A stretch of DNA of 38,549 nt, from positions 13,985-52,533 of the forward strand of contig PLXX01000126.1 in the NCBI GenBank assembly GCA_003153275.1, in the 5' to 3' direction. Below the pieces are notes generated by a model that did no database searches, had not been told where the DNA came from, and worked only from the letters and a program-made list of their open reading frames with translations. The DNA is from Nitrospiraceae bacterium (GTDB lineage Bacteria > Nitrospirota > Thermodesulfovibrionia > Thermodesulfovibrionales > UBA6898). The translations under genes were made by a program, and so were the position numbers. Positions 13,467 to 30,130 of this stretch are shown here, one piece after another (the stretch's first letter is position 1; every line of letters starts with the position of its first letter).

Positions 13467-16400
13467 TGCCCAACCTCCTTCATAGGAATAAACACACGAA
13501 ATACACTACCCCTGCCAACCTCGCTCTCAACCTCGATGTTGCCACTATGCTCCTGGATAATCCGGTGCGTAATCGCCAGGCCGAGCCCGGTCCCCGAAGC
13601 CTTGGTCGTAAAAAATGGATTAAAGATCGATGACAGGTCAGCTGCTGATATGCCCTTGCCGGTGTCCCTGATCTCAAGAACGGCAAAGGCACCGCGGACA
13701 AATGTTTTGAATCGCATCTCTCCGGCCCCGGACAACGACTGGATCGCATTCGTAACAATATTCATGATCGCCTCCTTCACCCTGTTGAAATCGACGAAGA
13801 CCTCGAGCCCCGGGGTGTAGTCCCTGACGATACTGATTCCTCTGTCCTCTGTGTCGGATGCCATGACCTTTATGATATCATCTACAATCGAATTTAGGGA
13901 CACAGACTCCCGCACCAGCCGCACCTCTTTCACAAAACCCAGAATCTCCCTAAGTATCTGCTCAAGCCGGGCAACCTCCTTAACGATAATAGTGGCGTAC
14001 TCCTTGAGGTTGCCGTCAAGCTTCTTTTCAAGGCGCTTCGCAAACCCGCCGACAGAGACAAGGGGGTTTCGTATCTCATGGGCGACCTTTGCCGCCACCT
14101 CGCCGAGCGCAGCCATCTTCTGGGACATGACAAGCTTGGCCTGGAGACTCTTCAGCTCAGTTACATCTCTGACCACATGGACCGAACCGATAAACTCATT
14201 GTTCAGGTCGAAGATGGGGGAACTTGACGTTAAGAATGTCCCGCCGAGATGGGGGTCTTCCAGTTCTTCGATATAGGCCTTTTTCGTGGTCACGGTTTTA
14301 TGGTGCGGACATTTGTTGTACGGCTCATTGGTCCCGTGGAATATCTCGTAGCATTTCCTTCCGACAATCTCCGAGGCCGGAAGACCGATCTTATTACAGA
14401 CCGCCTTATTGACGCTCTTGATGACATAATCGCTGCTATTGAAATAGACCATGTCAGACATCGACTCAAAAATGTTTTCGAGCTGCTGTTCAGCCAGTTT
14501 CACCTGTTCAAAGAGGCGCGCGTTCTCGATGGCCGCCGCTACATGGTTCGAGAAGCTTGCGAGAAACCGCATGTCCTCTTCCGTAATCTCCTTGCGGTTG
14601 AAATAATTGTCGACCCAGATGATGCCGATCACCTTGTCCCGGGAGATTAAAGGCACAATGGCATAGGCCTGTGTTCCGAGTTGCTGGATCAGGATCGTAT
14701 CCGAGAGAGGTTCTTCCCTCACGTCTTTCACATTATAATATTTCTTCTCACGGACCGCTCTTGTAATAATGGTATCTTCGCCAAGCGGAATTTCAATACC
14801 GATCGTCAGCCTGTCGAGAAACGAGTTCTTTTCAAGGGGATTTGACATCACCTCAAGCATGATCTCTTCCATAGACTTGCGCTGGTGCGAGAGTTCATCC
14901 CAGATTCTCCCGGCCTCCTCAGGATTTGCAGGACCCACGCCCATCTCACCCTTGAGCAGGTTAGCTTTTTCATCAACAAAGAGGAGGATGGCCCGGTTAA
15001 AGCCCATCCCGTCGCTCATGGTCACCCCGATCAGGACCATCCGGAGAAGCTTGTCGAGCTCAAGGGTGCCCCGCATGGCTGAACTGATGAAAAAGAGTCT
15101 CGACAACTCCTGACTCCTGCGGATCAACTCTTTCTCAACCAGCTTTTTCGCTGAAATGTCACGGGATATGCCGCTCACGCCGATCACCGTACCGGCAGCG
15201 TCCTTGATCGGAGAAAGCGAAAGGCTGACCTCTATGATCATGGAATCCTTCTTTTTCCTGAACGTCTCGATATCCCTCAGCACCTCGCCCTTTTTTATCT
15301 TTTCCGTATTCTCGCGCTCCTGGGCGAGAAGGAATTCAGGGACATAGGGCATGAAGCTCCCGATCGCCTCGATCTCGGTGAACCCGAATATCTTTTCTGC
15401 TCCCTGGTTCCAGGACGTGATCTTGCCATCAAGATCGGTCGTCACGATAGCGTCTGCAGAGTTATCGATAATGCTCTCAAGGTATTCTTTTGTCTGTATG
15501 ACCTCCCGGTAGAGGCTGAGCGTCTCCTCCTGATACAGCACTCGTTCAGTTGTATCCTGGACAAAAACAACAGATTCGATCACCTCTCCGTCGCTGTTCT
15601 TGACGGGATACGATGAAAGCTCTGCATAGTTCATGCCCCGAGACTGCGTGATCGTGTTGATCTCACCCGTTTCAAAGGTGGGTTTTGCTGCGCAGTGAGG
15701 ACAGATACCGATTTTTTCATGAAATATGTCGATGCTGTTACGCCCGATGAGGTCAATGCCCGGCATACTGGTCCAGTCTTGAATGTACCTGTTCGCGGAA
15801 ATAATCGTATAGTCTTTGTCCAGCGATATGATGCCCCCCTGCACACTGTCAAACAGGATATCCAGTCTCTTCTTCTCCTCGCTCGCCAGCCGCTCGCGAT
15901 GGACCTCGGTCTCATAGAGTTTCGACTTGTCGATTGCTATTGCCGTAATCCCCGCAAATCCTTCTGCCGTATTCAGATCATCATTATCAAAGGGTACCGG
16001 TCCACCCGACACATCGATCTTGTCGTACAGACCCAGCGTACCGATGACCACGTCGCCAAGTTTAAGCGGGACGCAGATGGCCGTCCTGACATTGAGCTTT
16101 GGCACTCTCATGTCATCGGGCAGTCTGGATATATCCTCTACCAGGAGCGGCATTCCTTTTTGAGCAACCCATCCGGCGATGCCGTCGCCCAGCAGCAATT
16201 CCATCTCATCCTCAATCCCCCGGGGAAGACCGTAACTCGACTTTATCCTAAGCCGTTCTCCCTCGACCAGGCGTATAATGCAACCACGTGAGGAAAGCAT
16301 CCGTGATATGTCCTCGGCCGTTCTCCTGAGAAGTTCTTCGAGGTCGAGAATCGAGGTGACCGCCCTGGTAAGCTCATAAAGGATCGTCAGCTTCTGCAAC

Positions 16401-17656
16401 TGTTTCCTGGTCGCAGCGTAGAGTTCGGCATTCCGTGCCACCGAGCCTATGGTATGCGAGAGGATAGTCAGGGTGTTAATTTCATCCTTGTTATAGGTGC
16501 CGGCAGGTATGCTCGCAATCACAAGCATACCTGAACAGGCGTTGTCCCTGACTATAGGGACTGCCGCAACTGACTTGAATTCCCTGCTGAGCTTCATCTC
16601 GGTCTCAGGATATCCGCTGATGTCAGGTAAGATTACCGGACTGAGCGTCTGAAGCAGTTCCTCCACCAGACGATCTCCGGCCGGCAGATTGGCATATTCA
16701 GGCGACTCATCTTTCCTGCTGGACGCCTCGAGGAAAAACAGTTTTTGTTCTGCCCGGTATGTGAAGATCAGGCACCGGTCATGCTTCATTTTCGCCGCAA
16801 TCGTCTCAGCCATAAGGGAAAAGACATCCCTCAGGTCGAGAGTCGCCCCTGCTATCCGGGAGACATCAAGCAGCAGTTCAGTCTCACGCAGCTTCTGACT
16901 GACCTTGTAGTTTGATTCCTCCAACTCAGTCGCCATACTGTTAAACCCTGCAGCGACCCGGCCAAACTCATCGGTCCTTTTCATGTCGATTCTGTACGAA
17001 AAGTTTCCTCCGCCCAGTTTTTCAGTCGCCTCGATCAGTCTATTAAAAGGCGCTGTTATCTGCCTCCTGATCCTCACGATCAGGAATACCGAGACAAGGG
17101 CGCTGAATACTATCAGGGATACGTGATAAACGATCAGATCCTTTTCCGTACTTTCACTCTGCTGGACAACCTCCAGAACCTTGTCTACCGCGCGCTCCTG
17201 CAGAGCATCGATCTTCGTACTCACCGCAAGTCCATCGGTCTCCATTTTACGGATAGAGCCGATGACCGCATCCGAGCCGACCGGATCCGGATTCAGGATG
17301 ATATTCCTGGTGGAATCCATAAATAATCTATAATCCTTTTCGAGCGACTCAACATCTGCACTGCCTTTAAACACCCGGTAGAGCCTGGCAAACCCGTTGC
17401 TGGCGTCCTCGGTCCTCCTGGCATATTCCTTCTTGAACCGTACATCGCCAGTCAGCGCCCAGCTTCTGGTCGCATCCAGAATGTCGGCTACGTCCCTGTC
17501 AAGCATATTAAAAATCTTGTTCTGCTCGCTGACCGTTCGTAGCGATGCCATATTACTCCTCATCTCCTCAAAAATCATGATCGTCCCCGTTGCAAGGATC
17601 GCGATTGCAATCAGAAAAAAGGAGAGCATAAAAGTCAGTTTTGCCCGGAGGTTCAT
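13463..17656 (-). CDS. Giant membrane-anchored multi-sensor histidine kinase
   Basis: The 1397-residue kinase has TM1 (about 7-28), a helical periplasmic sensor (about 30-170), TM2 (about 175-195), a HAMP segment (about 195-250), then approximately GAF (265-410), GAF (425-585), PAS (600-720), PAS (735-855), GAF (870-1040), PAS (1050-1165), HisKA with H1193 in VAHEIRNPL, and HATPase with DTGKGI, NPFFTTKASGTGLGLAI. Three PAS and three GAF domains imply that several cytoplasmic signals are combined with one periplasmic input. Two PAS domains carry a CPHC or CPHH element. The ATG overlaps the glgA stop by four bases and its own stop overlaps the receiver gene. Boundaries are estimates. Confidence 0.92.
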   Translation of the reverse strand: MNLRAKLTFMLSFFLIAIAILATGTIMIFEEMRSNMASLRTVSEQNKIFNMLDRDVADILDATRSWALTGDVRFKKEYARRTEDASNGFARLYRVFKGSADVESLEKDYRLFMDSTRNIILNPDPVGSDAVIGSIRKMETDGLAVSTKIDALQERAVDKVLEVVQQSESTEKDLIVYHVSLIVFSALVSVFLIVRIRRQITAPFNRLIEATEKLGGGNFSYRIDMKRTDEFGRVAAGFNSMATELEESNYKVSQKLRETELLLDVSRIAGATLDLRDVFSLMAETIAAKMKHDRCLIFTYRAEQKLFFLEASSRKDESPEYANLPAGDRLVEELLQTLSPVILPDISGYPETEMKLSREFKSVAAVPIVRDNACSGMLVIASIPAGTYNKDEINTLTILSHTIGSVARNAELYAATRKQLQKLTILYELTRAVTSILDLEELLRRTAEDISRMLSSRGCIIRLVEGERLRIKSSYGLPRGIEDEMELLLGDGIAGWVAQKGMPLLVEDISRLPDDMRVPKLNVRTAICVPLKLGDVVIGTLGLYDKIDVSGGPVPFDNDDLNTAEGFAGITAIAIDKSKLYETEVHRERLASEEKKRLDILFDSVQGGIISLDKDYTIISANRYIQDWTSMPGIDLIGRNSIDIFHEKIGICPHCAAKPTFETGEINTITQSRGMNYAELSSYPVKNSDGEVIESVVFVQDTTERVLYQEETLSLYREVIQTKEYLESIIDNSADAIVTTDLDGKITSWNQGAEKIFGFTEIEAIGSFMPYVPEFLLAQERENTEKIKKGEVLRDIETFRKKKDSMIIEVSLSLSPIKDAAGTVIGVSGISRDISAKKLVEKELIRRSQELSRLFFISSAMRGTLELDKLLRMVLIGVTMSDGMGFNRAILLFVDEKANLLKGEMGVGPANPEEAGRIWDELSHQRKSMEEIMLEVMSNPLEKNSFLDRLTIGIEIPLGEDTIITRAVREKKYYNVKDVREEPLSDTILIQQLGTQAYAIVPLISRDKVIGIIWVDNYFNRKEITEEDMRFLASFSNHVAAAIENARLFEQVKLAEQQLENIFESMSDMVYFNSSDYVIKSVNKAVCNKIGLPASEIVGRKCYEIFHGTNEPYNKCPHHKTVTTKKAYIEELEDPHLGGTFLTSSSPIFDLNNEFIGSVHVVRDVTELKSLQAKLVMSQKMAALGEVAAKVAHEIRNPLVSVGGFAKRLEKKLDGNLKEYATIIVKEVARLEQILREILGFVKEVRLVRESVSLNSIVDDIIKVMASDTEDRGISIVRDYTPGLEVFVDFNRVKEAIMNIVTNAIQSLSGAGEMRFKTFVRGAFAVLEIRDTGKGISAADLSSIFNPFFTTKASGTGLGLAITHRIIQEHSGNIEVESEVGRGSVFRVFIPMKEVGQ

Positions 17657-19104
17657 CGGGACACCTTCATGACAGCCTTGCGATACAGCATGAGATAATA
17701 GCTCGCAGAGCGCTCACAGGAAAAATCGTCGGCCATAGCCTCCCGGATAAGGCTTCGGAACCTGTCGGGGTGTCGATAGACGGACAGCGCCCGCCTAACA
17801 GCTCCGAGCAGTGCCGCCACCGAATACTCTGCAAAAAGAAACCCGGTGCCCTTCCCTGCTTTGGAATCATAATCTCGGATGGTATCCGCAAGACCTCCTG
17901 TACGCCGGGCTATGGGGATTGCTCCATACCGTAGTGCAATAAGCTGCCCCAAGCCACAGGGTTCATACCGCGAGGGCATCAGAAAAAAATCTGCACCTGC
18001 ATAAATCAATCGGGCAGCCTGCTCACTGAACCCGATCGTCAGGGAAACTCTGCCGGGATATTGTCCGGCAAGCCCGGCCAAAAGGGTATGATAGTGCTCT
18101 TCGCCCTTGCCCAGGATGACCAGGTCCACTCCCAAATCAACCAGTCCTTCGATCGCACCGGCAACCAGATCAAGCCCCTTCTGAGATGAAAATCTGCCCA
18201 CAACACCTATAATCGGTCTTTCGTTTTGTTCCAGCCCCGCCTGTTCCCGGAGGGCCTGTCTGCTCGCGGCCCGTGCATCGAGGCTGTCCCTGCTATACAC
18301 TACCGGCAAAAGCGTGTCAAGGGACGGGTCAAACTCTCCGTAATCAATGCCGTTGATGATCCCATAAAGATCAGCCTTCCGGGCCCGTAAGAGACTGTCA
18401 AGTCCGAAGCCGTTCTCCGGCATCAGGATCTCCCGGGCATAGGTCTGACTTACGGTGTTGATGAGGTCGGCATATATCAGCCCTGCCTTCAGATAGTTAA
18501 GCATATCGTGGAACTCAACTTTATCTATGGTGAAATACTCCCAGCCGAGCCCGGTATATCTGATATCGCCCTTGTTAAAGAGCCCTTGATATCCAAGATT
18601 ATGGATTGTCATGACCGTAGCGGTCTCTCTGAAATGAGGCCGGTCACAGTAGTAGTCTTTCAGGTAGAGAGGAATAAGACCTGTCTGCCAGTCGTTGCAA
18701 TGGATGACATCAGGCCTGATATTGAAAATCTGACATGTCTCGAGTATGGCCTTCGAAAAAAAAGCAAACCGCAACGCATTATCATGGTAATCTCCGTAGG
18801 CAGTACCATAGAGTTCCGGCCGGTTAAAAAGCTCCTCGCACTCAATAAAATAGGCAGAGGGAACAGCTGATGTATCAGAAGTCCAGACCGCTCCATGAAG
18901 CGCAAACACTCCAAGGTCAAGCGTGAACGATCTGCCGGTCTCATGAAGAACAAAGCACTCCCGTATTCCGGCATAGAGTGGCAGAATAAGGGAGACCTGT
19001 TCCCCCCGTTCTCTTAATTCTTTGAGCAATGCACCGGCAACATCGGCAAGTCCCCCCGTCTTTACATACGGGACTGCCTCAGAAGAAGCTATGATTATCC
19101 GCAT
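17653..19104 (-). CDS. glgA: Glycogen synthase (ADP-glucose type, GT5)
   Basis: The 483-residue enzyme extends alpha-1,4-glucan from a nucleotide sugar. The N-terminal domain has the donor-binding KTGGLADV motif (residues 15-22) and the usual HNLGYQG and NTVSQTYA segments. The C-terminal GT-B half shows VGRFSSQKGLDL and PSRYEPCGLGQL with the catalytic glutamate, then RRTGGLADT. Length and motifs are normal. It starts 13 bases after galT with a GGAG site and overlaps the sensor kinase by four bases. The context suggests that glycogen synthesis or use is linked to the signals sensed by that kinase, which is an inference from layout. Confidence 0.93.
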   Translation of the reverse strand: MRIIIASSEAVPYVKTGGLADVAGALLKELRERGEQVSLILPLYAGIRECFVLHETGRSFTLDLGVFALHGAVWTSDTSAVPSAYFIECEELFNRPELYGTAYGDYHDNALRFAFFSKAILETCQIFNIRPDVIHCNDWQTGLIPLYLKDYYCDRPHFRETATVMTIHNLGYQGLFNKGDIRYTGLGWEYFTIDKVEFHDMLNYLKAGLIYADLINTVSQTYAREILMPENGFGLDSLLRARKADLYGIINGIDYGEFDPSLDTLLPVVYSRDSLDARAASRQALREQAGLEQNERPIIGVVGRFSSQKGLDLVAGAIEGLVDLGVDLVILGKGEEHYHTLLAGLAGQYPGRVSLTIGFSEQAARLIYAGADFFLMPSRYEPCGLGQLIALRYGAIPIARRTGGLADTIRDYDSKAGKGTGFLFAEYSVAALLGAVRRALSVYRHPDRFRSLIREAMADDFSCERSASYYLMLYRKAVMKVSR

Positions 19105-19117
19105 AAAGGCTCCAGTC

Positions 19118-20113
19118 CTAAATCTTTGCTGCCCTCATAAACTGCGCAGACTCCTCCGGGGGAGTCGGGTTGATATAAAAGCCTGATCCCCATTCAAAAC
19201 CCGCGATCTTGGTAAGTTTCGGTACAAGCTCTATATGCCAGTGATAATACTCGTTCACCTCATCATAAAAAGGCGAGGTGTGTAGGACAAAATTATACGG
19301 CGGCGTATCGAGGATACGATCCATCTGCCTCAGGATCTTCTGGAGCATCTCCGCCAGATCGGTAAAGTTTCTATCCGGCGGCATAAACATGGACTCATGT
19401 CTTTTCGGGAGTATCCAAGTCTCAAAAGGTGCACGCGGTGCAAAGGGGGCCATGGCCACATAACGGGCATTCTCATAGATAATCCGTTTCCCGTCCCCAA
19501 GCTCCTGGTTAATGACATCGCAGAATATGCACCGCTCCTTGAACTCATAATGCCGGCGGGCAGAATCCAGCTCCTCTTTCACGAGCTTCGGGACGATCGG
19601 CAGAGCAATCAGCTGCGTATGGCTGTGTTCAAGTGAGGCCCCGGCAACCTCCCCTTCATTCTTAAAAACCAGGACATACTTAAGCCGGGTATCTTTCTTC
19701 AGGTCCGTCAGGCGGAGATATGCAGCCCAGAGCAGGTCCTCGACTGCCTTCTGGCTCATCGTCGACAAGGTAAGGTTATGGTCAGGGCTTTCGATAATAA
19801 CTTCATGGGCGCCAATCCCGTTCATCTTGTCAAAGATACCCTCCCCGGCCTTTTTGAGTTCACCATCTATTTGAAGCACAGGGAACTTATTGGGCATGAC
19901 CCGTAAAGTCCAGTCCGGCGTGTTTGGGGGCGATCCCACCGGCCTGAAGGCCATAATCTCAGGTGGCGTTGTATATTCGTTGCCCGGACAGAACGGGCAG
20001 AATCCCCCTTTTTTTCGCCGCGAATCTGAAATAAAATCAACAGGTCTTTTTCCGCGTTCAATCGATATAATGACCCATCTGCCGACTATGGGATCTTTTC
20101 TCAGTTCAGGCAT
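19118..20113 (-). CDS. galT: Galactose-1-phosphate uridylyltransferase family
   Basis: The 331-residue HIT-superfamily protein begins MPELRKDPIVGRWVIIS and has zinc ligands in CPFCPGNE (C39, C42). The active-site nucleophile region reads EHSHTQLIALP, and YYHWHIELVP lies near the C-terminus. It swaps UMP between UDP-glucose and galactose-1-phosphate in the Leloir pathway. Some close bacterial and thermophile relatives act on other nucleotides, for example ADP-glucose phosphorylases, and its position directly before glgA makes an ADP-glucose-related role worth testing. The ATG at 20113 is preceded by TGGAGG. It is the first gene of a long minus-strand run. Confidence 0.87.
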   Translation of the reverse strand: MPELRKDPIVGRWVIISIERGKRPVDFISDSRRKKGGFCPFCPGNEYTTPPEIMAFRPVGSPPNTPDWTLRVMPNKFPVLQIDGELKKAGEGIFDKMNGIGAHEVIIESPDHNLTLSTMSQKAVEDLLWAAYLRLTDLKKDTRLKYVLVFKNEGEVAGASLEHSHTQLIALPIVPKLVKEELDSARRHYEFKERCIFCDVINQELGDGKRIIYENARYVAMAPFAPRAPFETWILPKRHESMFMPPDRNFTDLAEMLQKILRQMDRILDTPPYNFVLHTSPFYDEVNEYYHWHIELVPKLTKIAGFEWGSGFYINPTPPEESAQFMRAAKI

Positions 20114-20184
20114 GTATCCTCCAGCAACTCAATGGTTTTGGTCGAAATTTTCAGGCTATTGAAATAATGCAATATTTCGGAATT

Positions 20185-20190
20185 ATTATA
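20185..20190 (-). promoter_or_regulatory. Possible -10 element upstream of galT
   Basis: The minus strand reads TATAAT about 72 bases before the galT ATG in an AT-rich stretch. No good -35 hexamer sits at 16-18 bases, so this is only a weak candidate for the promoter of the galT-glgA-kinase run. Confidence 0.3.
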
Positions 20191-20265
20191 TCACAACGAG
20201 ATGGCAGCAACCGGTATTCCACAGTACTATACATATCTCAGTCTATCGGGAAATGCAAGTGACAT

Positions 20266-21597
20266 TTATGCTGAGTGACTGATCTTGCCGGCGACCTTCC
20301 CTGCCCAGACCCGGGCTTTTTCCAAGATCGCATCTTCGTCCAGCGTCGTGGGCCGACCGTTCTCAATAAGCACCCTGCCCCGGACCATCACCCCAGTGAC
20401 GTCGGACGATTTCATAGAATAGACGATATGAGAATAGATGTCATACAGTGGGACAAGATGTGGTCTGTTCGTATCCGCTAGGACCATGTCCGCAGATTTG
20501 CCGCACTCAATACTCCCTGAAATGCTGCCGAGACCCAGTGCCTCAGCACCGGCCCGAGTGGCCATGAGCATCACCTGCCGGGCGTTAAGGGCGGTGGGAT
20601 CTTCAGACGTGACCTTGTGGACCTTTGCCGCGGTCGCCATCTCGCTGAGTATATCAAGATCGTTATTGCTCGCAGCGCCGTCAGTCCCGAACGTGACCCT
20701 GACTCCCGCGCCGAGCATCTTCACCACCGGGGCGATACCCGACGCCATCTTCAGATTGCTTTCGATGCAATGGGCAACATGGACCCCGCTTTCCGCGAGC
20801 ATATCGATTTCTTCGTCCGAGGGCCAGACGCAGTGGGCTGCGATGACATGCTCATCCAGGATACCATGATCAAAAAGAAGCTCTATCGGCCTCCGCCCGT
20901 ATCTGTTTATGATCTCCTGCACCTCCCACCGAGTCTCTGACAGATGCAGGTGCAACGGAACCTGATGCCGACGGGAGAGCTCCTTGGCCTTCCTCATTGT
21001 TTCAGGGGAGCAGGTATATGGTGCATGCGGGGCAACTGCGGGAACGACCAGATCATCGCCGATCCAGTCTCTGATAAAACGGTCCGCATTCACAAGGTAC
21101 TCATCAGCCGTCCGTGCTGTAACGCTCGGAAAATCAAGGATCCCGGCTCCGATGATCGCCCGCATACCCGATTTATTCACCGACTCAGCAATCGCATCCC
21201 CGTAAAAGTACATGTCGCTGAAGACCGTAATCCCGGCCCGGAGCATCTCAAGACAGGCCAGTTCAGCCGCATCGCGAACAAAAGCATGGCTGAGCCACTT
21301 ATTCTCTGCAGGCCAAATATGCTCTTCGAGCCAGACCTTCAGCGGCAGGTCGTCTCCAAGTCCTCTGAAATAGACCATCGGCGAATGCGTATGCGTGTTG
21401 ACCAGCCCGGGGAAGAGAACCGTATGAGGGCCGCCGAGCATCTTCTCTGCACAATATTCTGCGCAAATATGATCCGCTGTGCCAACAGCAACAATCCTCC
21501 CTCCGTTGACCGCAACAGCACCGCTCTCGATGGTGTCCAGATCAGCGTTCATCGTAAGGACATGCCCAGCTGTAATGATGAGATCTGCCTTCTTCAT
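20266..21597 (-). CDS. mtaD: 5-methylthioadenosine / S-adenosylhomocysteine deaminase
   Basis: The 443-residue amidohydrolase matches the MtaD/SsnA/chlorohydrolase group. It has the metal ligands in NTHTHSPMVYFRG, the WLEEHIWPAE segment, HLHLSET, AHCVW and the final aspartate in GTDGAASNNDLD. The enzymes deaminate methylthioadenosine and S-adenosylhomocysteine to the inosine forms, clearing SAM by-products. Guanine or chlorinated-triazine hydrolases are close relatives, but the GAASNN segment and length favour MtaD. It follows asd on the same strand after an 82-base gap containing an inverted repeat. Its neighbours include two SAM-dependent methyltransferases further along the same strand. 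Confidence 0.87.
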   Translation of the reverse strand: MKKADLIITAGHVLTMNADLDTIESGAVAVNGGRIVAVGTADHICAEYCAEKMLGGPHTVLFPGLVNTHTHSPMVYFRGLGDDLPLKVWLEEHIWPAENKWLSHAFVRDAAELACLEMLRAGITVFSDMYFYGDAIAESVNKSGMRAIIGAGILDFPSVTARTADEYLVNADRFIRDWIGDDLVVPAVAPHAPYTCSPETMRKAKELSRRHQVPLHLHLSETRWEVQEIINRYGRRPIELLFDHGILDEHVIAAHCVWPSDEEIDMLAESGVHVAHCIESNLKMASGIAPVVKMLGAGVRVTFGTDGAASNNDLDILSEMATAAKVHKVTSEDPTALNARQVMLMATRAGAEALGLGSISGSIECGKSADMVLADTNRPHLVPLYDIYSHIVYSMKSSDVTGVMVRGRVLIENGRPTTLDEDAILEKARVWAGKVAGKISHSA

Positions 21598-21649
21598 GTC
21601 AACGGATAACTCCCCTGTATCCTAGCCTCTGCATGTTGACCTTTGTGCC

Positions 21650-21683
21650 CTAACCCCGAAGGGGAGGTGTGCGGAGGGGTTAG
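21650..21683. other. Inverted repeat spanning the asd stop codon
   Basis: CTAACCCC (21650-21657) pairs perfectly with GGGGTTAG (21676-21683). Inside it, CCCC-GAA-GGGG offers an alternative smaller hairpin. The outer arm includes the asd stop codon. There is no T-run, so it does not look like a simple intrinsic terminator. It could be an RNA-stability hairpin between asd and mtaD or a dispersed palindromic repeat. Confidence 0.6.
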
Positions 21684-22792
21684 TGCTCAACCACGATGCG
21701 CAGCATCCGCCTCAACGGTTCCGCAGCGCCCCAAAGAAGCTGGTCTCCGCAGGTGAATGCGTTCAGATATGCCGGTCCCATGTTCATCTTGCGCAGGCGT
21801 CCGACAGGTACCGTGAGCGTTCCGGTGATGGCAGCAGGAGTCAGCTCTCGGACAGTAATCTCCCGCTGGTTCGGTACAACCTTCACCCACGAATTGTGTC
21901 GGGCTATCATGTCCGTGATCTCATCCAGAGGTACATCCTTCGTCATCTTGATCATGAGTGCCTGACTGTGGCAGCGCATGGCGCCTACCCGCACACAGGT
22001 ACCGTCGATCGGGACGGGATTTCTCTCGCGGCCGAGGATCTTGTTCGTCTCAGCCTGCCCCTTCCACTCCTCCCTGGTCTGGCCGTTCTCAAGCTGTTTA
22101 TCAATCCAAGGGATCACTGATCCGGCAAGAGGCACTCCGAAAAAGTCTCTGGGATAGCCGTCGGAGCGAATATGGTCTGCTACCGCGCGGTCGATTTCCA
22201 GAATCGCCCCTGCCGGGTCCTCAAGAAGACCTTTGACACTGCAGTGGATGGAACCCATCTGTTCCAGCAGTTCGCGCATATTGTTGGCACCGGCACCGGA
22301 GGCGGCCTGATAGGTCATGGCGCTCATCCATTCGACCAGCCCAGTCTCGTATAGCCCACCTAGGGCCATAAGCATAAGTGAAACCGTGCAGTTGCCGCCG
22401 ATATAGTTTTTAATCCCCTTTGCAAGGCCGTCCCTGATAACGTTCAGGTTGACCGGGTCAAGGATGATAATCGAATCTTTCTCCATGCGCAGGGCAGAGG
22501 CAGCGTCGATCCAGTAGCCGTTCCAACCGGCAGCGCGTAGTCTTGGATACACGTCATGTGTATAGTCGCCGCCCTGGCAGGATACAATCATATCCATCGT
22601 TTTCAGAGCACTAATGTCCTTTGCATCCATCAGCGCCGGAACTGCCTTCCCGATATTCGGTGCCCTCCCCCCCACGTTCGAGGTGGTAAAAAACACCGGT
22701 TCAACAAGATCAAAATCCTTTTCTTCGCACATCCGGCCCATAAGCACCGAACCAACCATTCCACGCCACCCGACGAAACCTGCTCGCTTCAT
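21680..22792 (-). CDS. asd: Aspartate-semialdehyde dehydrogenase
   Basis: The 370-residue enzyme reduces aspartyl phosphate to aspartate semialdehyde with NADPH, the branch point to lysine, methionine and threonine. It has the nucleotide-binding [10 protein letters not shown], the catalytic C135 in [16 protein letters not shown] (the same number as in E. coli), and [13 protein letters not shown]. It is the enterobacterial-type Asd rather than the shorter Gram-positive form. The ATG at 22792 is preferred over 22819 because GGGAG lies six bases before it and the family N-terminus begins MKxxGFVGWRG. It is followed by mtaD. Confidence 0.93.
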
Positions 22793-22975
22793 TTTCTGCT
22801 CCCTTACGCTGAAATTCATACTGTCCGCTTAATGCTGTCTGTTGCCTGCTCAATAAACAAGAAAAAACCGGGCGGCGGACAGGCAACCCTTATAAGAAAA
22901 TATTATACGTCATGCATGGAGAGAAAGTCTTGCCTCAGGAAGTGAGACCATCCCTGTGAAAACACTGCTGTTTTG

Positions 22976-25687
22976 TCATTCGAATGCCTGGGCGGAAAAT
23001 AATATACGCGCATCAACAACGGCACACCCGTTTCCTTTGTCGAAGACCATGAGCGGATTTATTTCCATCTCCGAAATCTCGGGAAAATCTTCTATCATTG
23101 CCGAAAATCTGAGTAGAATTTCCCTGAGGGCATCCAGATCCTTTGGTGTGCTCCCACGCCAGCCAGTAAGGAGGGGAAGGCTCTTAAGCTGAGCGAGCAT
23201 TACATCCGGATCCTTATCAGTCAGGGGGTGCAGGGCAAAGGCAACATCCTTGTTCAGCTCGACGTACACACCTCCCATGCCGACCATGACAAGCGGTCCG
23301 AATACAGGGTCATGGGACATGCCGACAATGGCCTCCTGCCCGCTCTTAAGCATAGGCTGTACAACAACCCCTTCGAAAGCAGCGCTGTGGCCGGCCTCTT
23401 CAAGAAGGTGGGCCCTGATAGCGGCAAACGCCTCTTCAGCCTCTGCCTTATTCTGAATGTTAAGGACAATTCCTCCTACGTCAGTCTTATGGATAATGGT
23501 TGACGAGCGGAGCTTCATGACAACAGGAAAGCCAATATTGCCGGCAGCTTCTGCTGCTTCCGATGCACTATCGGCATGTCGTATATCCACGACCGGAATG
23601 CCATATTCCTTCAGCAGTCCGGCGGCAACCTCCTGCTGCAGCCAGCCTCCGTTCTTCATGTCGGCATTCCGACTTATGAGATAACGCCGAGCCCTCTCCT
23701 CACTGATATCCGCAAACACAACAGATTTGCCCATATCAAGTTTTCTGTACTGGGCATGAGGCCACGCGCGTGAAAGAGCCTTTACCGCATCCTCAGGGAA
23801 GACATACAAGGGGATGATCCTGCCATCGTCAAGCGTTAATCTGACGGCGGAGGTCTCTGACATCATGAAACACGCGAGCACCGGCTTATCTCCCCGGTAG
23901 TCCTCCAGAGCCCTTCTTATGCCTGCGGCCACCTCCTCGGGTGCCCTCAGCGGTATATTGATAACAATGATGCTGTCTATCTCCTCTGCATCAAGGAGCA
24001 CGTTCAGCGCCTTTTCAAAGTGTTCGCCCGGTGCGGAGGCGATCATGTCGACGGGGTTGGCGACGGCTGCCTCTTTCGGAAGAAAGGCAGAAAGCTTCTG
24101 CTGCGTCCTGGCAGAAAGCGGCGGAACAGCGAGCCCCCACCCGATGGCAGCATCGGCCGCAATGACACCGGGTCCACCCGCATTGGTGAGAATTGCTACG
24201 TTCGGGCCCAGGGGAAGTGGCTGATGGGCCAGGCCCTTTGCGACATTGAACATTTCTTCTATGGTATCGACCCGTATGATGCCTGCTTTTCTGAATAGAA
24301 CATCTACTGCAACATCCGACGCAGCCAGGGCGCCTGTATGAGAACTGGCCGCTCTGCTTCCCGCCTCACTTCGCCCGGATTTTACGGCAATGATCGGTTT
24401 TTTGCGTGAAATGCGTCGCGATATACGGCTGAATCTTCTCGTATTGCCAAAGGTTTCAAGGTAAAGGAGTATGACCCTGGTGTTTTCATCGTCCTCCCAG
24501 AACTCCAGCAGGTCATTCGACGATATGTCAACGCGGTTGCCGATGCTTGCAAAATGGGCTATGCCGAGGTTGTTGTTCTTTGCATAGTCCAGCAGCGCCA
24601 GGCCCAGTGCTCCGCTGTGGGTCCCGATGCTCAGGGTCCCACGGGGCGGGTATGCAGGAGCAAAGGTTGCATTTAAATTCACGTGGGGATCTGTATTCAT
24701 AATGCCGAGGCAATTGGGACCTATGCAACGCATGCCGTATGAAAATACTTTCTCCCTGAGAAGCCGCTGCCGCTCGCTTCCCTCATCCCCAGCCTCTGAA
24801 AAACCGGCAGATATGACCAGCACCCCCCAGACCCCCCTTTTGCCGCACTGATCAACAACATCGAGCACCATTTTTGCGGGGACAACGATGACAACGAGAT
24901 CAACGTTTCCCGGGACTTCGGCAATCGTCGGATAACAGAGTACGCCGTTTATCGACGCTGCGTTAGGGTTGACCGGAAAAACTGTCCCACTGAAGTTGCT
25001 GTAAAGAAGATTGCGAAAGACCTTGCCTCCGACGCTATCAGTGTCGCGGGATGCACCGACGACCACAACGCTCTTGGGGTATACAATCCTCCGCATGCCG
25101 GCAGAACGGGCTATATGTTCACGACGCTCCTGCCGTTTTGAAAACTCTTCCTGTTCCTCAAGGTCAAAGATAATCTCATACCTGCCTTCGTTGACCCTCT
25201 TCGTCAGCTTGAACCCGCTCTCCTCAAACGCGTTGAGCATACGGGTGTTTTCAGGAAGCACGTGGGCCACAAATTTTCTGATCTTATATTTGCCTGCGGT
25301 CTGCGCGAGTCTTTCGAGCAGCGCGGTGCCGATGCCCTGGGCCTGGATGTTGTCTTCTACAGCAAAGGCTATTTCCGCAGATCTTTTGTCGGTTTCAAGA
25401 AACCACCTGCCAACCGCACGGATATTTTCATCATCCCCCTCACCGCTGAGCCCGACATACGCATACATATCGGGGGGATTTATCTCCGTAAAATAATCCA
25501 GTTCCTGGTCGGTGATATGGGCCTTTGTATAACCAAACCGAAAATACCGGGTCTGAGGGCTCATCCGGTAGAAGAAATCTCTCAGTTTTTCCTTGTCGTC
25601 AGCTACGATCGGCCTGACTTTAAACGTATGTCCATCTTTCAGTATGACCCTTATGACTTCAGGAATATCTGTTGCTTTTATCTGCAT
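22976..25687 (-). CDS. GNAT acetyltransferase / ADP-forming acyl-CoA synthetase fusion
   Basis: The 903-residue protein has, in order, a GNAT domain (about 17-170, with QAQGIGTALLERLAQ for acyl-CoA binding), a CoA-binding Rossmann domain (about 205-300, VVVGASRDTDSVG), the ligase domains with the phospho-histidine motif SSHTGALAASD (H450), and an ATP-grasp domain (about 660-900). Relatives include the protein lysine acetyltransferase Pat and true ADP-forming acyl-CoA synthetases. The GNAT-first order is the reverse of Salmonella Pat. H450 is retained, so the ligase part could be catalytic. The ATG at 25687 has an AAAGGTGG site. It lies 13 bases after the adjacent CBS gene, so the three minus-strand genes form an operon. 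Confidence 0.9.
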   Translation of the reverse strand: MQIKATDIPEVIRVILKDGHTFKVRPIVADDKEKLRDFFYRMSPQTRYFRFGYTKAHITDQELDYFTEINPPDMYAYVGLSGEGDDENIRAVGRWFLETDKRSAEIAFAVEDNIQAQGIGTALLERLAQTAGKYKIRKFVAHVLPENTRMLNAFEESGFKLTKRVNEGRYEIIFDLEEQEEFSKRQERREHIARSAGMRRIVYPKSVVVVGASRDTDSVGGKVFRNLLYSNFSGTVFPVNPNAASINGVLCYPTIAEVPGNVDLVVIVVPAKMVLDVVDQCGKRGVWGVLVISAGFSEAGDEGSERQRLLREKVFSYGMRCIGPNCLGIMNTDPHVNLNATFAPAYPPRGTLSIGTHSGALGLALLDYAKNNNLGIAHFASIGNRVDISSNDLLEFWEDDENTRVILLYLETFGNTRRFSRISRRISRKKPIIAVKSGRSEAGSRAASSHTGALAASDVAVDVLFRKAGIIRVDTIEEMFNVAKGLAHQPLPLGPNVAILTNAGGPGVIAADAAIGWGLAVPPLSARTQQKLSAFLPKEAAVANPVDMIASAPGEHFEKALNVLLDAEEIDSIIVINIPLRAPEEVAAGIRRALEDYRGDKPVLACFMMSETSAVRLTLDDGRIIPLYVFPEDAVKALSRAWPHAQYRKLDMGKSVVFADISEERARRYLISRNADMKNGGWLQQEVAAGLLKEYGIPVVDIRHADSASEAAEAAGNIGFPVVMKLRSSTIIHKTDVGGIVLNIQNKAEAEEAFAAIRAHLLEEAGHSAAFEGVVVQPMLKSGQEAIVGMSHDPVFGPLVMVGMGGVYVELNKDVAFALHPLTDKDPDVMLAQLKSLPLLTGWRGSTPKDLDALREILLRFSAMIEDFPEISEMEINPLMVFDKGNGCAVVDARILFSAQAFE

Positions 25688-25700
25688 AATCCGCCACCTT

Positions 25701-26129
25701 TCATAGTACTTCTCCACCTAATCTGAGCAGTTGCTCGAAATGTCCTGCTTCAAGCCCTGCCATATACTGTACGATGTCAAAGCTCGTCAGTATACCGACA
25801 GGCCACTTTGTTCCCACATGCGGGTCCACAATAATGAGATGATAGTATTTCGATCGAATCATAAACTCTATCGCCTTCTCAACCGGCCACTGGGGATCGA
25901 CTTCAATCCGATACGGCCGCATGATATCCTGGGCCTTCTTATTGCTGAGATTCTCACCGTAGTGAAAAAGCAGTTCCCGATACGTTATGATCCCCCATAC
26001 CTCTCCCCCTTCGTTGACCACAACGACCGAACGAAAATGATTATCGTCCATCATCCTGGCTACATCATAGACACTGTCATCGGCCAGGCAGGAAATGACC
26101 CCTTTATGCATAAGGTCGCAAACTCTCAT
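25701..26129 (-). CDS. CBS-pair protein 1
   Basis: The 142-residue protein is a stand-alone tandem of two CBS motifs: DLMHKGVISCLADDSVYDV to VWGIITYRELL (about 5-56) and DIMRPYRIEVDPQWPV to VGILTSFDIVQYM (about 68-124). CBS pairs bind adenine nucleotides or SAM and transmit energy or methyl status. No enzyme domain is attached. It overlaps CBS protein 2 by four bases and precedes the GNAT fusion by 13 bases, so it probably regulates or senses for that enzyme. AcuB of Bacillus is also a CBS protein encoded beside an acetyltransferase; that comparison is by architecture only. Confidence 0.88.
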   Translation of the reverse strand: MRVCDLMHKGVISCLADDSVYDVARMMDDNHFRSVVVVNEGGEVWGIITYRELLFHYGENLSNKKAQDIMRPYRIEVDPQWPVEKAIEFMIRSKYYHLIIVDPHVGTKWPVGILTSFDIVQYMAGLEAGHFEQLLRLGGEVL

Positions 26130-26539
26130 GATACCGCCCCCTGTTCCTGCTCCTCTGCCATATACGCGATAATATCACTGGCGAATAACATGCCAATCAC
26201 CGCCCTGCTCCCTGCTTTGTCGGAAACAACAATCAGATGTTCAACCCCTTCCCGTGACATCAGCGTCACCGCATCCCTGAGCGGCGTGCTCAGGGTAACC
26301 GTTGTAATACTATCCCGGGTGATGATGTCCTTTGCCTTTGCCGTTCCGAAATCTTTCCCGAAGGCATTGATCATGGTGTCGGATGAAATGAAACCCACGA
26401 CCTCACGGTTGTTGTTCAGGACCACACAATATCTGATCCTGTTCACAACCATGATCTGGGCGACAAAATGAAGGGTGGTCTCCTCATTGCAGGTAATGGC
26501 TCCACGGCGGATGCACTGCGCAACTCGTTCCCTGTTCAC
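26126..26539 (-). CDS. CBS-pair protein 2
   Basis: The 137-residue protein has two CBS motifs: ITCNEETTLHFVAQIM to VGFISSDTMINAFG and DIITRDSITTVTLSTPLRDA to IGMLFASDIIAYMAEE. It is related to but clearly different from the adjacent CBS protein, suggesting an old duplication or a heteromeric pair. I chose the GTG at 26539 because AAAGGAGA sits six bases before it; the ATG at 26563 has none. It is the first gene of the CBS-CBS-GNAT run and lies divergent from the radical SAM gene. Confidence 0.85.
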   Translation of the reverse strand: MNRERVAQCIRRGAITCNEETTLHFVAQIMVVNRIRYCVVLNNNREVVGFISSDTMINAFGKDFGTAKAKDIITRDSITTVTLSTPLRDAVTLMSREGVEHLIVVSDKAGSRAVIGMLFASDIIAYMAEEQEQGAVS

Positions 26540-26545
26540 GTAAGC

Positions 26546-26553
26546 TCTCCTTT
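26546..26553 (-). promoter_or_regulatory. Ribosome binding site fixing the CBS protein 2 start
   Basis: The minus strand reads AAAGGAGA with six bases to the GTG at 26539. It lies inside the frame of the alternative longer start at 26563, which it argues against. Confidence 0.65.
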
Positions 26554-26715
26554 GCAGACTCATACAGCATCGCGACAGTCCTGCATGCTCTTCCCTGTCT
26601 CATTGTAGCATACACCGATACGCGTGTAACGTCTCCGGTATCCAAAATATCCGCTATGTCGAACACATGAGATCTGTATAACAGTTGTTTGGTTATGCAA
26701 AACACTACCTAAAGA

Positions 26716-26739
26716 TGTATACAGTGATGTATACTGTGA
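26716..26739 (+). promoter_or_regulatory. Tandem 12-bp repeat / operator-like site before the radical SAM gene
   Basis: Two adjacent 12-mers, TGTATACAGTGA and TGTATACTGTGA, differ at one base. They also contain the inverted pair ACAGT and ACTGT around a seven-base centre, and each contains the palindrome GTATAC. The second copy includes TATACT, a possible -10. The site lies in the 246-base gap between the divergent CBS protein 2 and radical SAM genes and could control either or both. No regulator is identified. Confidence 0.5.
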
Positions 26740-26785
26740 CTATGAAACCCGGCGATGCAAAGAAAATTCGCTGCGCAGGCATTTG

Positions 26786-28321
26786 ATGAAAGTTCTTCTT
26801 GTATATCCGGAGTACCCGGATACCTTCTGGAGTTTTTCTTACGCCCTGAAGTTTATTTCAAAAAAAGCGGCCTATCCCCCACTTGGGCTGCTGACCATCG
26901 CTGCAATGCTTCCTGGGAAATGGGACAAGAAGCTCGTGGATATGAATGTCCGGGAACTGAAAGATAAGGACCTCCTGTGGGCCGACTATGTCTTTATAAG
27001 CGCCATGTCCATTCAAAAAGAATCGGTGAACAATGTGCTCAAAAGGTGTTCTGACATCGGCGTCAGGGTTGTGGCCGGAGGCCCTCTTTTTACCAATGAT
27101 CCCGAGGAATTCAGTGATGTGGATCATTTGGTGCTCAATGAGGCGGAGATTACTCTTCTACCTTTTCTCAGAGATCTGGAGGCGGGCAGTCCCCGTCGTA
27201 TTTACGCTTCCCTTGAGAAGGCGGACCTGACAACAACGCCTATCCCTCTGTGGGAACTCATAGACATGAATCAGTATTCCTGCATGAACATCCAGTACTC
27301 CAGAGGGTGCCCTTTTGACTGCGAATTCTGCAACATCACATCTCTCTTCGGCCGGATTCCCAGGACAAAGTCCGCTGGACAGGTAATTGCAGAACTGGAG
27401 AAGATATACTCCCTTGGCTGGAGAGAAGGGGTCTTCTTTGTGGACGATAATTTCATCGGCAACAAGGGCAAACTGAAAAAGGAGATACTGCCTGCGCTCA
27501 TTCAATGGATGGAGCTTAGAAATAATCCCTTTTATTTTTCGACCGAGGCCTCAATCAATCTGTCGGACGACGAGGAACTCATGGGAATGATGACGCAGGC
27601 CGAATTCATTGCGGTCTTTGTCGGAATAGAGACTCCGCACGAGGAAAGCCTTATTGAATGCACGAAGACACAGAACAGGAACCGTGACCTCATTGCCAGC
27701 GTTAAGAAGATACAAGACTTCGGACTTGAGGTGCAGGCCGGGTTTATTGTAGGCTTTGACCAGGACCCTGCCTCCATCTTCGATAAGATGATAGCGTTCA
27801 TTCAGGAAAGCGGGATTGTGACAGCCATGGTGGGGCTCTTGAATGCGCCTCGCGGCACGAAGTTGTATGAACGACTGGTAAGGGAGAACAGACTGCTGAA
27901 GACGTCCACCGGTGACAACACGGACCTTTCTGTGAATTTCATTCCGAAAATGAGTTATGAAAAGCTGCTCAGCGGTTACCGGGAAATTATCGAGACCATT
28001 TATTCTCCGAAACATTATTATCTAAGAGTCAAAAGATTTATGAAGGATTTCAGACCTATGCAGAAAAAGGTGATCCAGATGCGATACAGCTATTGGAAGG
28101 CCGGATTAAAAGCTATGTTTCTCCTTGGGATCATCGGAAAAGAGCGCTTCTATTACTGGAAGCTCGTCTTCTGGTCTCTCTTCAGGAGACCCAAACTCTT
28201 ACCGATGGCTATAACCTTTTCGATTTACGGCTATCATTTCAGAAAGATATTCGAACAGCATTTCAGGATGGCTGACGAACAAGGCAGAGACCCGCTAAAT
28301 CCGGCGTCAGAACTTCGGTAA
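26786..28321 (+). CDS. B12-binding radical SAM protein, DUF4070 type
   Basis: The protein has about 511 residues: an N-terminal cobalamin-binding-like domain (about 1-150, VLLVYPEYPDTFWSF, KKLVDMNVREL), a radical SAM barrel with CPFDCEFCNI supplying the three cluster cysteines, and a C-terminal DUF4070-type helical extension beginning near RGTKLYERL. Hopanoid C2-methylase HpnP has this architecture, but many family members have other unknown substrates, so methylation of a lipid or other carbon centre is only a possibility. The frame opens at a TTG (26783) directly followed by ATG (26786). I prefer the ATG. No strong ribosome binding site is seen. The basic, aromatic tail (about 410-490) might associate with membranes. 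Confidence 0.85.
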   Translation: MKVLLVYPEYPDTFWSFSYALKFISKKAAYPPLGLLTIAAMLPGKWDKKLVDMNVRELKDKDLLWADYVFISAMSIQKESVNNVLKRCSDIGVRVVAGGPLFTNDPEEFSDVDHLVLNEAEITLLPFLRDLEAGSPRRIYASLEKADLTTTPIPLWELIDMNQYSCMNIQYSRGCPFDCEFCNITSLFGRIPRTKSAGQVIAELEKIYSLGWREGVFFVDDNFIGNKGKLKKEILPALIQWMELRNNPFYFSTEASINLSDDEELMGMMTQAEFIAVFVGIETPHEESLIECTKTQNRNRDLIASVKKIQDFGLEVQAGFIVGFDQDPASIFDKMIAFIQESGIVTAMVGLLNAPRGTKLYERLVRENRLLKTSTGDNTDLSVNFIPKMSYEKLLSGYREIIETIYSPKHYYLRVKRFMKDFRPMQKKVIQMRYSYWKAGLKAMFLLGIIGKERFYYWKLVFWSLFRRPKLLPMAITFSIYGYHFRKIFEQHFRMADEQGRDPLNPASELR

Positions 28322-28440
28322 CTATGTTTCTGTCGCCGCAATAATCAAAAACCCATTCTCAACTGCAGACAAAGAGATGCGAGTCTGGCCAGATGGATAA
28401 CTATATTCCCCAATTTAACACCTTTTTAACTTCAGACCCC

Positions 28441-28902
28441 TCACCGCCCCCTGAATATTTCCTCCAGCGTCTCCAACATGCCGTCCCTGTGAGTCGCGGG
28501 CCAGTAAATTTTTTTGCATCCCGAACATGTCCGGAAGGAACCCTGGGTCTTATAGACATATTCTGGCACGGCATCCATGATTTGTTCCTTGTCGACCTCT
28601 GTCAGTGGAATGTTGCATTCGATGCAGCGTGTCAGGAGATTTTGATACGGGTCTATGAAAAACTGCCTTGTCACCTGTTTCAGCTGGTCCTTGTAGCTGT
28701 TCCCCTCTACCAGAAAGAAGTTCCCTTTTGCCTTTCTCCTTTTTATGAGTAGGGTATCTCTAGTAAGGATTAATCTGCCCTCTCTCAATGCACGATTAAC
28801 CAGTTCCCCGTCTTCAATCTTGTGAGAATAGGCAACATCGCATCCTATGGCCCTCATCCATTTGGCGAGCCGTCCAAGCATGGCGTCCGCAATGAACTTC
28901 AT
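28441..28902 (-). CDS. Mut7-C RNase-domain protein with zinc ribbon
   Basis: The 153-residue protein starts KFIADAMLGRLAKWMRAIGC, the acidic first motif of the Mut7-C PIN-like nuclease domain, followed by LILTRDTLLIKRR. Its C-terminal half carries CIECN and CSGCKK pairs, a zinc ribbon typical of the family. It is presumed to be an RNase, but bacterial members are uncharacterised as far as I know. It begins 16 bases after the deacetylase gene and is probably co-transcribed with it. It converges with the radical SAM gene across a 119-base gap that shows no clear terminator. Confidence 0.83.
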   Translation of the reverse strand: MKFIADAMLGRLAKWMRAIGCDVAYSHKIEDGELVNRALREGRLILTRDTLLIKRRKAKGNFFLVEGNSYKDQLKQVTRQFFIDPYQNLLTRCIECNIPLTEVDKEQIMDAVPEYVYKTQGSFRTCSGCKKIYWPATHRDGMLETLEEIFRGR

Positions 28903-28918
28903 TTGGTTGGGGTGGCTT

Positions 28919-30061
28919 TCATGTCTGCAGCATTTGCGGCTTAATCAGCGGAAACACTTTTTCCCTGATCCTGGCTACGACCCTTCCGACTTCGTCCCTC
29001 ATCATCTTCTTCCTCGACCCCTGTTCCCGGTACTCCTCGTCCCTGAGCTTCCGGCTCCGGAACCCATCGAGTGGATACTGTTCGAGAAACGTATCTGGCA
29101 GCTCATCCGGCAGACTGACGTTATTCATGATCGCCCAGGCAAGTGTCCAGGCCCTGGCCACGTTTGTTATCTCATACCCTCCTCCTCCGAGTGCTATCCA
29201 CCTGGGTGAGAGCGCTTTCATCTTTCCGACCACTTCGCAAAAACCGTTCGTCGTGTAGTTCAGGTGTGTGAGCGGGTCAGTGCGGAATGAATCAACACCG
29301 AGCTGTCCCACAACGATGTCCGGCCTGAACCTTTCAATCAGCGGTGGACCGACCTCGTTGAAGGCATAAACAAAAAGCTCGTCGTCGGCATCAGGAGGCA
29401 TAGGGATGTTCACAGAATAGCCCCTCCCCTCTCCTTCGCCAAGGTCGTCTTCAAAGCCTGTCCCGGGGAAGAGGTATTTGCCGGATTCGTGGAGCGATAT
29501 CGTCAGCGCCCTGTCGTCACGGTAGAACGCATCCTGCACGCCGTCTCCGTGATGCGCATCGATATCGATATAGGCCACCCTTCTGCCCTTTCCGAGAAGA
29601 GTGGAGATGACGATAACCGGGTCGTTGATATAGCAGAACCCGGAGGCCCGGGAGGCTAGGGCATGGTGGAGGCCCCCCGCAATATTGAAAGCGATCGGTA
29701 CCTCGCCGCTGTCGACGAGCATGGCAGCCTGAAGCGACGCGCCGGCCACGAGCTTCGCCCCTTCGAAGACCCCTTTAAAGACGGGGTTGTCTCCGGAGCC
29801 GAGACCATAGCGCTCTTCCCCTGGTATCATGAGCCCGCTGTCAGCGGCCTTCAGTACGTCGATATAATCCCGTGTGTGATAGAGGAGCAGGTCGTCTTCT
29901 GACCCCGGTTTTGCCTCGACTACATGGACATCCTCGAGCGAAAGGAGTCCGTAAGCCTTTATCAGCTCATACGTGAGCTTGAGTCTTAAAGGATTAAGCG
30001 GATGCTCAGGCCCGTAGTCAAACTTCTCGAAGTCGTCGGAGTAAATAAAAGCGTTCTTCAT
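28919..30061 (-). CDS. acuC: Histone deacetylase-family protein, AcuC type
   Basis: The 380-residue enzyme would remove acetyl groups from lysines in proteins such as acetyl-CoA synthetase. The class I HDAC residues are visible: GPEHPLNPLR near the start, the catalytic histidines in AGGLHHA, zinc ligands in DIDAHHGDG and GVDSFRTDPL, and the tyrosine in GGGGYEI. The length is close to Bacillus AcuC. A C-terminal charged extension of about 60 residues is present. I start it at the ATG at 30061, not the TTG at 30070. No strong ribosome binding site is seen. It lies about 3.2 kb from the GNAT fusion and CBS genes on the same strand. Confidence 0.88.
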   Translation of the reverse strand: MKNAFIYSDDFEKFDYGPEHPLNPLRLKLTYELIKAYGLLSLEDVHVVEAKPGSEDDLLLYHTRDYIDVLKAADSGLMIPGEERYGLGSGDNPVFKGVFEGAKLVAGASLQAAMLVDSGEVPIAFNIAGGLHHALASRASGFCYINDPVIVISTLLGKGRRVAYIDIDAHHGDGVQDAFYRDDRALTISLHESGKYLFPGTGFEDDLGEGEGRGYSVNIPMPPDADDELFVYAFNEVGPPLIERFRPDIVVGQLGVDSFRTDPLTHLNYTTNGFCEVVGKMKALSPRWIALGGGGYEITNVARAWTLAWAIMNNVSLPDELPDTFLEQYPLDGFRSRKLRDEEYREQGSRKKMMRDEVGRVVARIREKVFPLIKPQMLQT

Positions 30062-30130
30062 ATTTTTCAAAGTATATGAGGAAACAGCGGGAAATGGAAG
30101 GAGCTCAGTCTCTTAAGACGTGAGCCGTCC

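Follow-up and report, generated by a model that had tools for sequence, protein, structure and literature searches.

The locus described here raises the question of whether two CBS-domain proteins, an acetyltransferase and a deacetylase encoded within about 7 kb form a rebuilt version of the Bacillus acuABC module, or whether the CBS proteins serve another partner. It lies in a stretch of 38,549 nucleotides (the window; positions 13,985 to 52,533 of contig PLXX01000126.1, GenBank assembly GCA_003153275.1), which is part of contig C34 of the Nitrospirota draft genome G000 (2.5 Mb, 82.5% complete). The minus strand encodes two stand-alone CBS proteins (CBS1 and CBS2), a fusion of a GNAT domain with an ADP-forming acyl-coenzyme A (CoA) synthetase (ACD), and an AcuC-type deacetylase, which an earlier interpretation of the letters alone (the sequence-only reading) had taken for a rearranged acuABC-like module. 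The genes it named are real, all being long open reading frames (ORFs), every one with curated domain matches. Our analysis points instead to a two-chain Bateman sensor that would tune an ADP-forming acyl-CoA synthetase, itself active and joined to a GNAT lysine acetyltransferase, a reading that we propose tentatively and with somewhat less than even confidence.

Coupling of the CBS genes to the GNAT-synthetase fusion

The gene order on the minus strand is CBS1, CBS2 and then the fusion. Inspection of the sequence showed that CBS1 and CBS2 share 4 nt (ATGA), and that the preferred start of the fusion lies 13 nt past the CBS2 stop and is preceded by the Shine-Dalgarno sequence AAGGTGG. The three genes are thus predicted to form a tight operon, with AcuC outside it. 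The promoter-like site of this operon (Table 1) is a consensus match only, the region containing 10 such sites where 7.0 are expected; it is strengthened by the conservation of the matching stretch in G002, a sister species of the same genus whose fusion is 89% identical.

The G002 locus also bears on the age of the arrangement. The DNA match of the two fusions runs past the gene start upstream into CBS2, and a broken CBS2 C-terminus (RSPAGILTGFDIVQYGTGVEAG*F) is found just before the G002 fusion. At a distance of about 30 nt upstream of this relic, 26 of 30 nt match window positions 26584-26613, which hold the -10 element and the leader. The simplest reading is that G002 lost about 750 bp, a deletion that took CBS1 and the first 100 codons of CBS2. 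Since both the CBS2 relic and the -10 region are found upstream of the G002 fusion, the linkage between CBS genes and fusion is older than the window genome; and since G002 keeps its fusion after the CBS loss, a fusion can be retained when the pair is gone. The synonymous divergence (dS) between G000 and G002 is about 0.6 for the fusion, far below that of four neighbouring genes (asd, galT, glgA and an amidohydrolase gene, 1.5-1.7), and in G002 the fusion lies elsewhere in the genome. Both observations suggest that its locus moved between lineages.

Recurrence of the CBS pair beside ADP-forming synthetases

The genomes compared were draft assemblies, mostly metagenome-assembled genomes (MAGs). 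CBS2 orthologues (66-74% identical) with an adjacent CBS1 (51-53%) were found in four of the 230 genomes of the class (G000, G354, G438 and G407), the two genes being kept as a pair in four genera. In G438, one strand carries in order a 2-oxoacid dehydrogenase E2 gene, an ACD alpha gene (446 aa), CBS1, CBS2 and a universal stress protein gene. The ACD alpha gene is complete and has no GNAT part, and the CBS pair follows 465 nt downstream. In G354, CBS1 is preceded on the same strand, at a distance of 89 nt, by the end of the orthologous ACD alpha gene. Because the ACD alpha genes of G354 and G438 and the GNAT-ACD fusion of the window all adjoin the pair, its shared partner is the ADP-forming acyl-CoA synthetase, with or without GNAT, and not AcuC or the GNAT domain. 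By a rough estimate, an ACD neighbour on the same strand would arise by chance with a probability of about 1e-3 per genome. The pair of E2 and ACD alpha genes recurs in the order, mostly without CBS genes.

Single CBS genes in G281 and G334 (about 30% identical) stand in another context and were rejected as orthologues, and we found no tandem CBS pair in the other fusion-bearing deltaproteobacteria and actinomycetes. The pair is not a general feature of the fusion, being absent, or present as a relic only, at all other fusion loci examined.

We made two further observations on these neighbourhoods. ACD alpha genes of Thermodesulfovibrionia recur directly after the 2-oxoacid dehydrogenase E2 gene, often with the beta subunit next (loci L260-L289), an arrangement that suggests substrate-level phosphorylation from 2-oxoacids. 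In G438 (locus L252, contig C208), the universal stress protein gene directly after CBS1-CBS2 is a tandem one on the same strand.

CBS1 and CBS2 as diverged Bateman proteins

CBS1 (26126-26563) and CBS2 (25701-26129) match the CBS domain with E-values of 1.4e-18 and 2.9e-22. Each is about 140 aa long, and both domain search and fold prediction indicate only a Bateman module, without an ACT domain. The predicted folds (four sequences each; pLDDT about 80, a moderate confidence) are plain Bateman modules with two CBS domains per module. They match AMP-, ATP-, diadenosine tetraphosphate (Ap4A)-, S-adenosylmethionine/methylthioadenosine (SAM/MTA)- and cyclic di-AMP (c-di-AMP)-binding Bateman proteins, so the ligand is not fixed by the fold; AcuB structures are also among the matches of both proteins. 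Stand-alone Bateman proteins such as ST2348 (2ef7), MJ0100 (3kpb), PAE2072 (2rif) and the Bateman half of AcuB are similar to them in size and fold, with TM-scores of about 0.6-0.8, and likewise have CBS domains in tandem. Unlike these, the window has two diverged tandem genes (about 31% identical), one of them with degenerate ligand motifs, that stay paired across genera. We searched both for the ribose/phosphate motif G-h-h-[ST]-x-x-D. In CBS2, which has the invariant block VDPHVGTKWPVG, site 2 is canonical (GILTSFD, with T-S-F-D) and site 1 has E in place of D (GIITYRE). The motifs of CBS1 are degenerate, with S-x-D-[ST] at site 1 and F or C at the [ST] position of site 2. The better preservation of the CBS2 motifs suggests that CBS1 and CBS2 may form an asymmetric heteromer.

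Conservation of the phosphorelay histidines in the synthetase half

The fusion matches GNAT (PF00583, 2e-8), CoA_binding_2, Succ_CoA_lig (1e-52) and ATP-grasp_5 (2e-74), and its set of ACD domains is complete (CoA_binding, Succ_CoA_lig, Ligase_CoA and ATP-grasp_5, all above the Pfam cut-offs). Its closest named relative belongs to a Thermodesulfovibrio sp. MAG, of the class Thermodesulfovibrionia. The GNAT domain resembles that of mycobacterial Pat (NF058543, 8e-21) and the Salmonella Pat GNAT structure 4u5y (2e-20). Domain order and size are those of type II GNATs (SlPatA-like), with an N-terminal GNAT whose motifs are kept and a C-terminal synthetase.

The synthetase domains of type I and type II GNATs have been described as inactive, the catalytic histidine being missing (PMC8556138). 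In the Nitrosopumilus 4-hydroxybutyryl-CoA synthetase (8WZU), H256 and H535 are the phosphorelay histidines of the swinging loop and the ATP-grasp domain (PMC11494057). They align with H460 (codon 24338-24340) and H743 (codon 23489-23491) of the fusion, in the numbering of the 913-aa ORF. An SHTGA or SHTAA motif and an HK pair are kept in nearly all aligned fusion orthologues, the Nitrospira group included; the few exceptions are one MAG sequence gapped there and one actinomycete. When aligned, Salmonella Pat (9it0) lacks the first phosphorelay histidine and keeps the second. The fusion can be aligned over its whole synthetase part with 8WZU (489 bits, same subdomain order) and with Ca. Korarchaeum ACD1 (4XYL), from which it differs in the added N-terminal GNAT and in the two-gene CBS sensor of its operon. 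Judging from these alignments, the window fusion and its clade, unlike the type I and II GNATs described, retain the catalytic histidine and its ATP-grasp partner, and the statement of inactivity would not hold for them. Since both phosphorelay histidines and the GNAT motifs are kept, the fusion is likely to combine a functional ADP-forming synthetase with an acetyltransferase, and it probably both makes acyl-CoA and acylates proteins. The local acyl-CoA supply imagined in the sequence-only reading is to this extent plausible.

An AMP-forming acetyl-CoA synthetase (Acs) with the acetylatable motif PKTRSGK is encoded in G000 on a different contig. We did not find an AMP-forming acs gene near the fusion at the roughly 25 fusion loci clustered, nor any other recurring functional neighbour; the neighbours that do recur reflect local synteny within one clade.

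Other GNAT domains joined to enzymes of acyl-CoA chemistry were also observed. A second such fusion of G000 (645 aa), in which a GNAT follows an acetyl-CoA hydrolase/transferase at the C-terminus, is encoded on contig C14 (GNAT match at 19617-20129; locus L038, 6202-8139). GNAT matches are also common in relatives within long open frames, about 630-660 aa in length, that probably encode this hydrolase/transferase-GNAT fusion too. A reverse layout of about 900 aa, synthetase first and GNAT last, with the histidine kept as THSG, is found in G036 (locus L042, contig C17), G048 (contig C33) and G057 (contig C33). In these relatives the reverse fusion directly adjoins an AMP-forming acetyl-CoA synthetase, which fits a Pat role.

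AcuC as a neighbour

Bacillus acuABC encodes the GNAT AcuA, the Bateman-ACT protein AcuB and the histone deacetylase (HDAC)-like deacetylase AcuC. The likeness of the window consists in a GNAT, Bateman proteins and an AcuC-type deacetylase within a short distance, and in an Acs with the target lysine motif elsewhere in the genome. The deacetylase has the HH pair, zinc ligands and Tyr of its family (alignment to HDAC2, 7kbh). It forms a close pair with the Mut7-C gene, and because the radical-SAM gene lying between them and the operon is on the plus strand, these two genes can share no transcript with the CBS and fusion genes. The sequence-only reading had placed the radical-SAM and Mut7-C genes correctly between the two halves of its module, and the strand of the former is a refinement of that picture.

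Fusion orthologues are patchily distributed, occurring among relatives in G002, G003, G042, G052 and G029; a scan of public genomes added about two dozen more (55-67% identical) in MAGs of Nitrospirota and 'Deltaproteobacteria'. We found no CBS pair, AcuC or Mut7-C gene in the flanks (up to 8-10 kb on each side) of the other fusion loci examined, including that of G002. Conversely, none of the 11 regions examined around AcuC orthologues (60-78% identical) contained a fusion, a CBS pair or Mut7-C. Across 396 genomes of the phylum, a full-length fusion was present in 14 and AcuC in 40, with both in 3 where 1.4 were expected (one-sided Fisher p = 0.16); when 49 Nitrospira-type fusions were added, AcuC was shared by 3 of 63, with 6.4 expected. 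Co-occurrence of fusion and AcuC above chance was thus not found in these genomes.

AcuC, being a separate unit without synteny or co-occurrence with the fusion, and with CBS proteins that lack ACT, is most likely an unrelated neighbour, and we excluded it from the system. For want of an ACT domain we also rejected CBS1 and CBS2 as AcuB proteins. Mut7-C was set aside since neither the AcuC loci nor the fusion loci of other genomes have it. So was the radical-SAM protein, the sole fusion-adjacent radical-SAM gene elsewhere (in G003) being a far weaker match (116 bits).

Possible action of the CBS pair

Synthetases of the ACD type catalyse the reaction acyl-CoA + ADP + Pi <-> acid + CoA + ATP. 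CBS1 and CBS2 would most likely assemble together, CBS2 carrying the better-kept nucleotide site and CBS1 acting as its degenerate partner; the pair would sense an adenine nucleotide and adjust the synthetase in trans, and in G000 it would also set the acyl-CoA supply to, or the occupancy of, the GNAT. We infer the pairing, the ligand, the contact with the synthetase, the direction of control and the lysine acetyltransferase activity, and hence the regulatory step itself. Given the tight coupling, the recurrence beside ACD genes and the fold, sensing of adenine nucleotides and tuning of the synthetase seem most likely, and the GNAT-less case of G438 argues that the synthetase rather than the GNAT would be the primary target. 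Several observations weigh against this proposal. All of the more than 25 other fusion orthologues examined lack a CBS pair nearby, so the fusion evidently works without it, and among 47 upstream fusion regions the CBS2 relic occurs only in G002. In G407, there is no ACD gene within a distance of about 9 kb from the pair. G354 and G438 are members of a single family, so that they may represent one event, and both are drafts, G438 having 6% contamination. Finally, the ligand site of CBS1 is degenerate. The link between CBS proteins and fusion made in the sequence-only reading was supported in part, by the operon, the G002 relic and the same pair beside ACD genes in G354 and G438, and it does not extend to most fusion loci.

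Other explanations give the CBS pair a different role. It could regulate the GNAT half and so provide, in trans and on two chains, the equivalent of a type III GNAT, with adenylates gating lysine acetylation and the ACD half serving chiefly to sense acyl-CoA, as it does in Salmonella Pat. GNATs often carry sensor domains, those of type III members being cAMP, NADP or ACT domains, and mycobacterial Pat, which the GNAT half resembles, is controlled by a cAMP domain (PMC8556138); the Acs of the genome, with its PKTRSGK motif, also speaks for gated acetylation. However, the partner in G354 and G438 is a synthetase alpha gene, and the roughly 25 fusion loci clustered have no AMP-forming acs gene nearby; we consider this explanation unlikely, if worth keeping in view. 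A similarly low probability is assigned to the idea that the pair senses another adenosyl ligand (CoA, acyl-CoA, SAM or c-di-AMP) or general stress and is a loose mobile cassette, its placement beside ACD genes being partly opportunistic. The pair is rare, most fusion loci lack it, G002 has lost it, and in G407 no ACD gene adjoins it. A universal stress protein gene follows it in G438, the closest fold and sequence neighbours of the pair bind ligands as varied as SAM/MTA, AMP and c-di-AMP, and the low dS of the fusion indicates a locus that has probably moved. Against a loose cassette stand the tight translational coupling to the fusion and the fact that two different ACD enzymes directly adjoin the pair on the same strand, which has the low chance estimated above.

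An acuABC-like switch, in which the CBS proteins control AcuC while the fusion acetylates, would account for the shared neighbourhood. In Bacillus, AcuB binds adenylates in its Bateman half and inhibits AcuC through its ACT domain (PMC13039410, PMC13121692), and both CBS proteins match AcuB structures in fold; such matches are, however, common to many unrelated Bateman proteins. The window proteins lack ACT, the part of AcuB that binds AcuC; the deacetylase stands on its own unit behind a plus-strand gene, the other AcuC loci examined have no synteny and co-occurrence with the fusion is not significant. The GNAT is part of a large fusion, and the recurrent partner of the CBS pair is an ADP-forming acyl-CoA synthetase. 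We consider such a switch very improbable, and the proposal of a rebuilt module, with AcuC as a member and the gene types conserved together, was not borne out.

Features of the window

The features discussed are listed in Table 1.

Table 1. Position and strand of the features, numbered from the first nucleotide of the window
Feature	Position	Strand	Remarks
Promoter-like site of the CBS1-CBS2-fusion operon	26584..26630	-	GTTACA-N17-TACAAT, TG before -10 (extended -10); consensus match
CBS1, stand-alone Bateman (two-CBS) protein	26126..26539	-	GTG 26539 preferred, AAGGAG upstream; ORF 26126-26563, ATG 26563
CBS2, stand-alone Bateman protein	25701..26129	-	ATGA overlap with CBS1
Fusion of GNAT and ADP-forming acyl-CoA synthetase, arranged as in type II GNATs	22976..25687	-	ATG 25687 preferred; ORF 22976-25717, GTG 25717
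GNAT domain of the fusion	25148..25657	-	putative base E115 and acetyl-CoA loop Q125-x-x-G-x-G; residues 21-190 in ORF numbering (913 aa)
ADP-forming acyl-CoA synthetase part of the fusion	23003..25102	-	alpha-type residues 206-650, ATP-grasp 688-905
B12-binding radical SAM / DUF4070 protein	26783..28321	+	lies between AcuC and the CBS-fusion operon and separates them; outside the system
Mut7-C RNase-domain protein	28441..28902	-	follows AcuC at 16 nt; outside the system
AcuC-type (class I HDAC-like) deacetylase	28919..30070	-	Hist_deacetyl PF00850, 5e-83; most likely an unrelated neighbour

Two observations concern the flanking genes. The order glgA-galT-amidohydrolase-asd (window 17653-22819) is common to the window and G002 (locus L258, contig C2), where another gene lies upstream of asd in place of the fusion. 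A sensor histidine kinase of 1397 aa with HAMP and several GAF/PAS domains (13463-17656) adjoins the glgA cluster.

Implications for ADP-forming synthetases and GNAT fusions

The finding is a modest variant and not a rebuilt acuABC module. In the open-access literature checked, a CBS pair in an operon with type I or II GNATs is not described. ADP-forming acyl-CoA synthetases conserve energy as ATP from acyl-CoA; we found no regulators of them in the open-access literature checked, and the CBS pair, which recurs beside two different enzymes of this kind, is a concrete candidate. A more far-reaching version, in which a dedicated two-protein Bateman sensor travels with ACDs and sets them by energy charge, so that the GNAT-fused enzyme would make its own acyl-CoA under adenylate control and acylate proteins, seems to us doubtful as a whole. 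In Nitrospirota and related lineages, fusions of GNAT and synthetase keep the full phosphorelay, and for this clade the notion of a dead synthetase would fail. Should the synthetase domain be active, a lysine acetyltransferase could draw on acyl-CoA that it makes itself.

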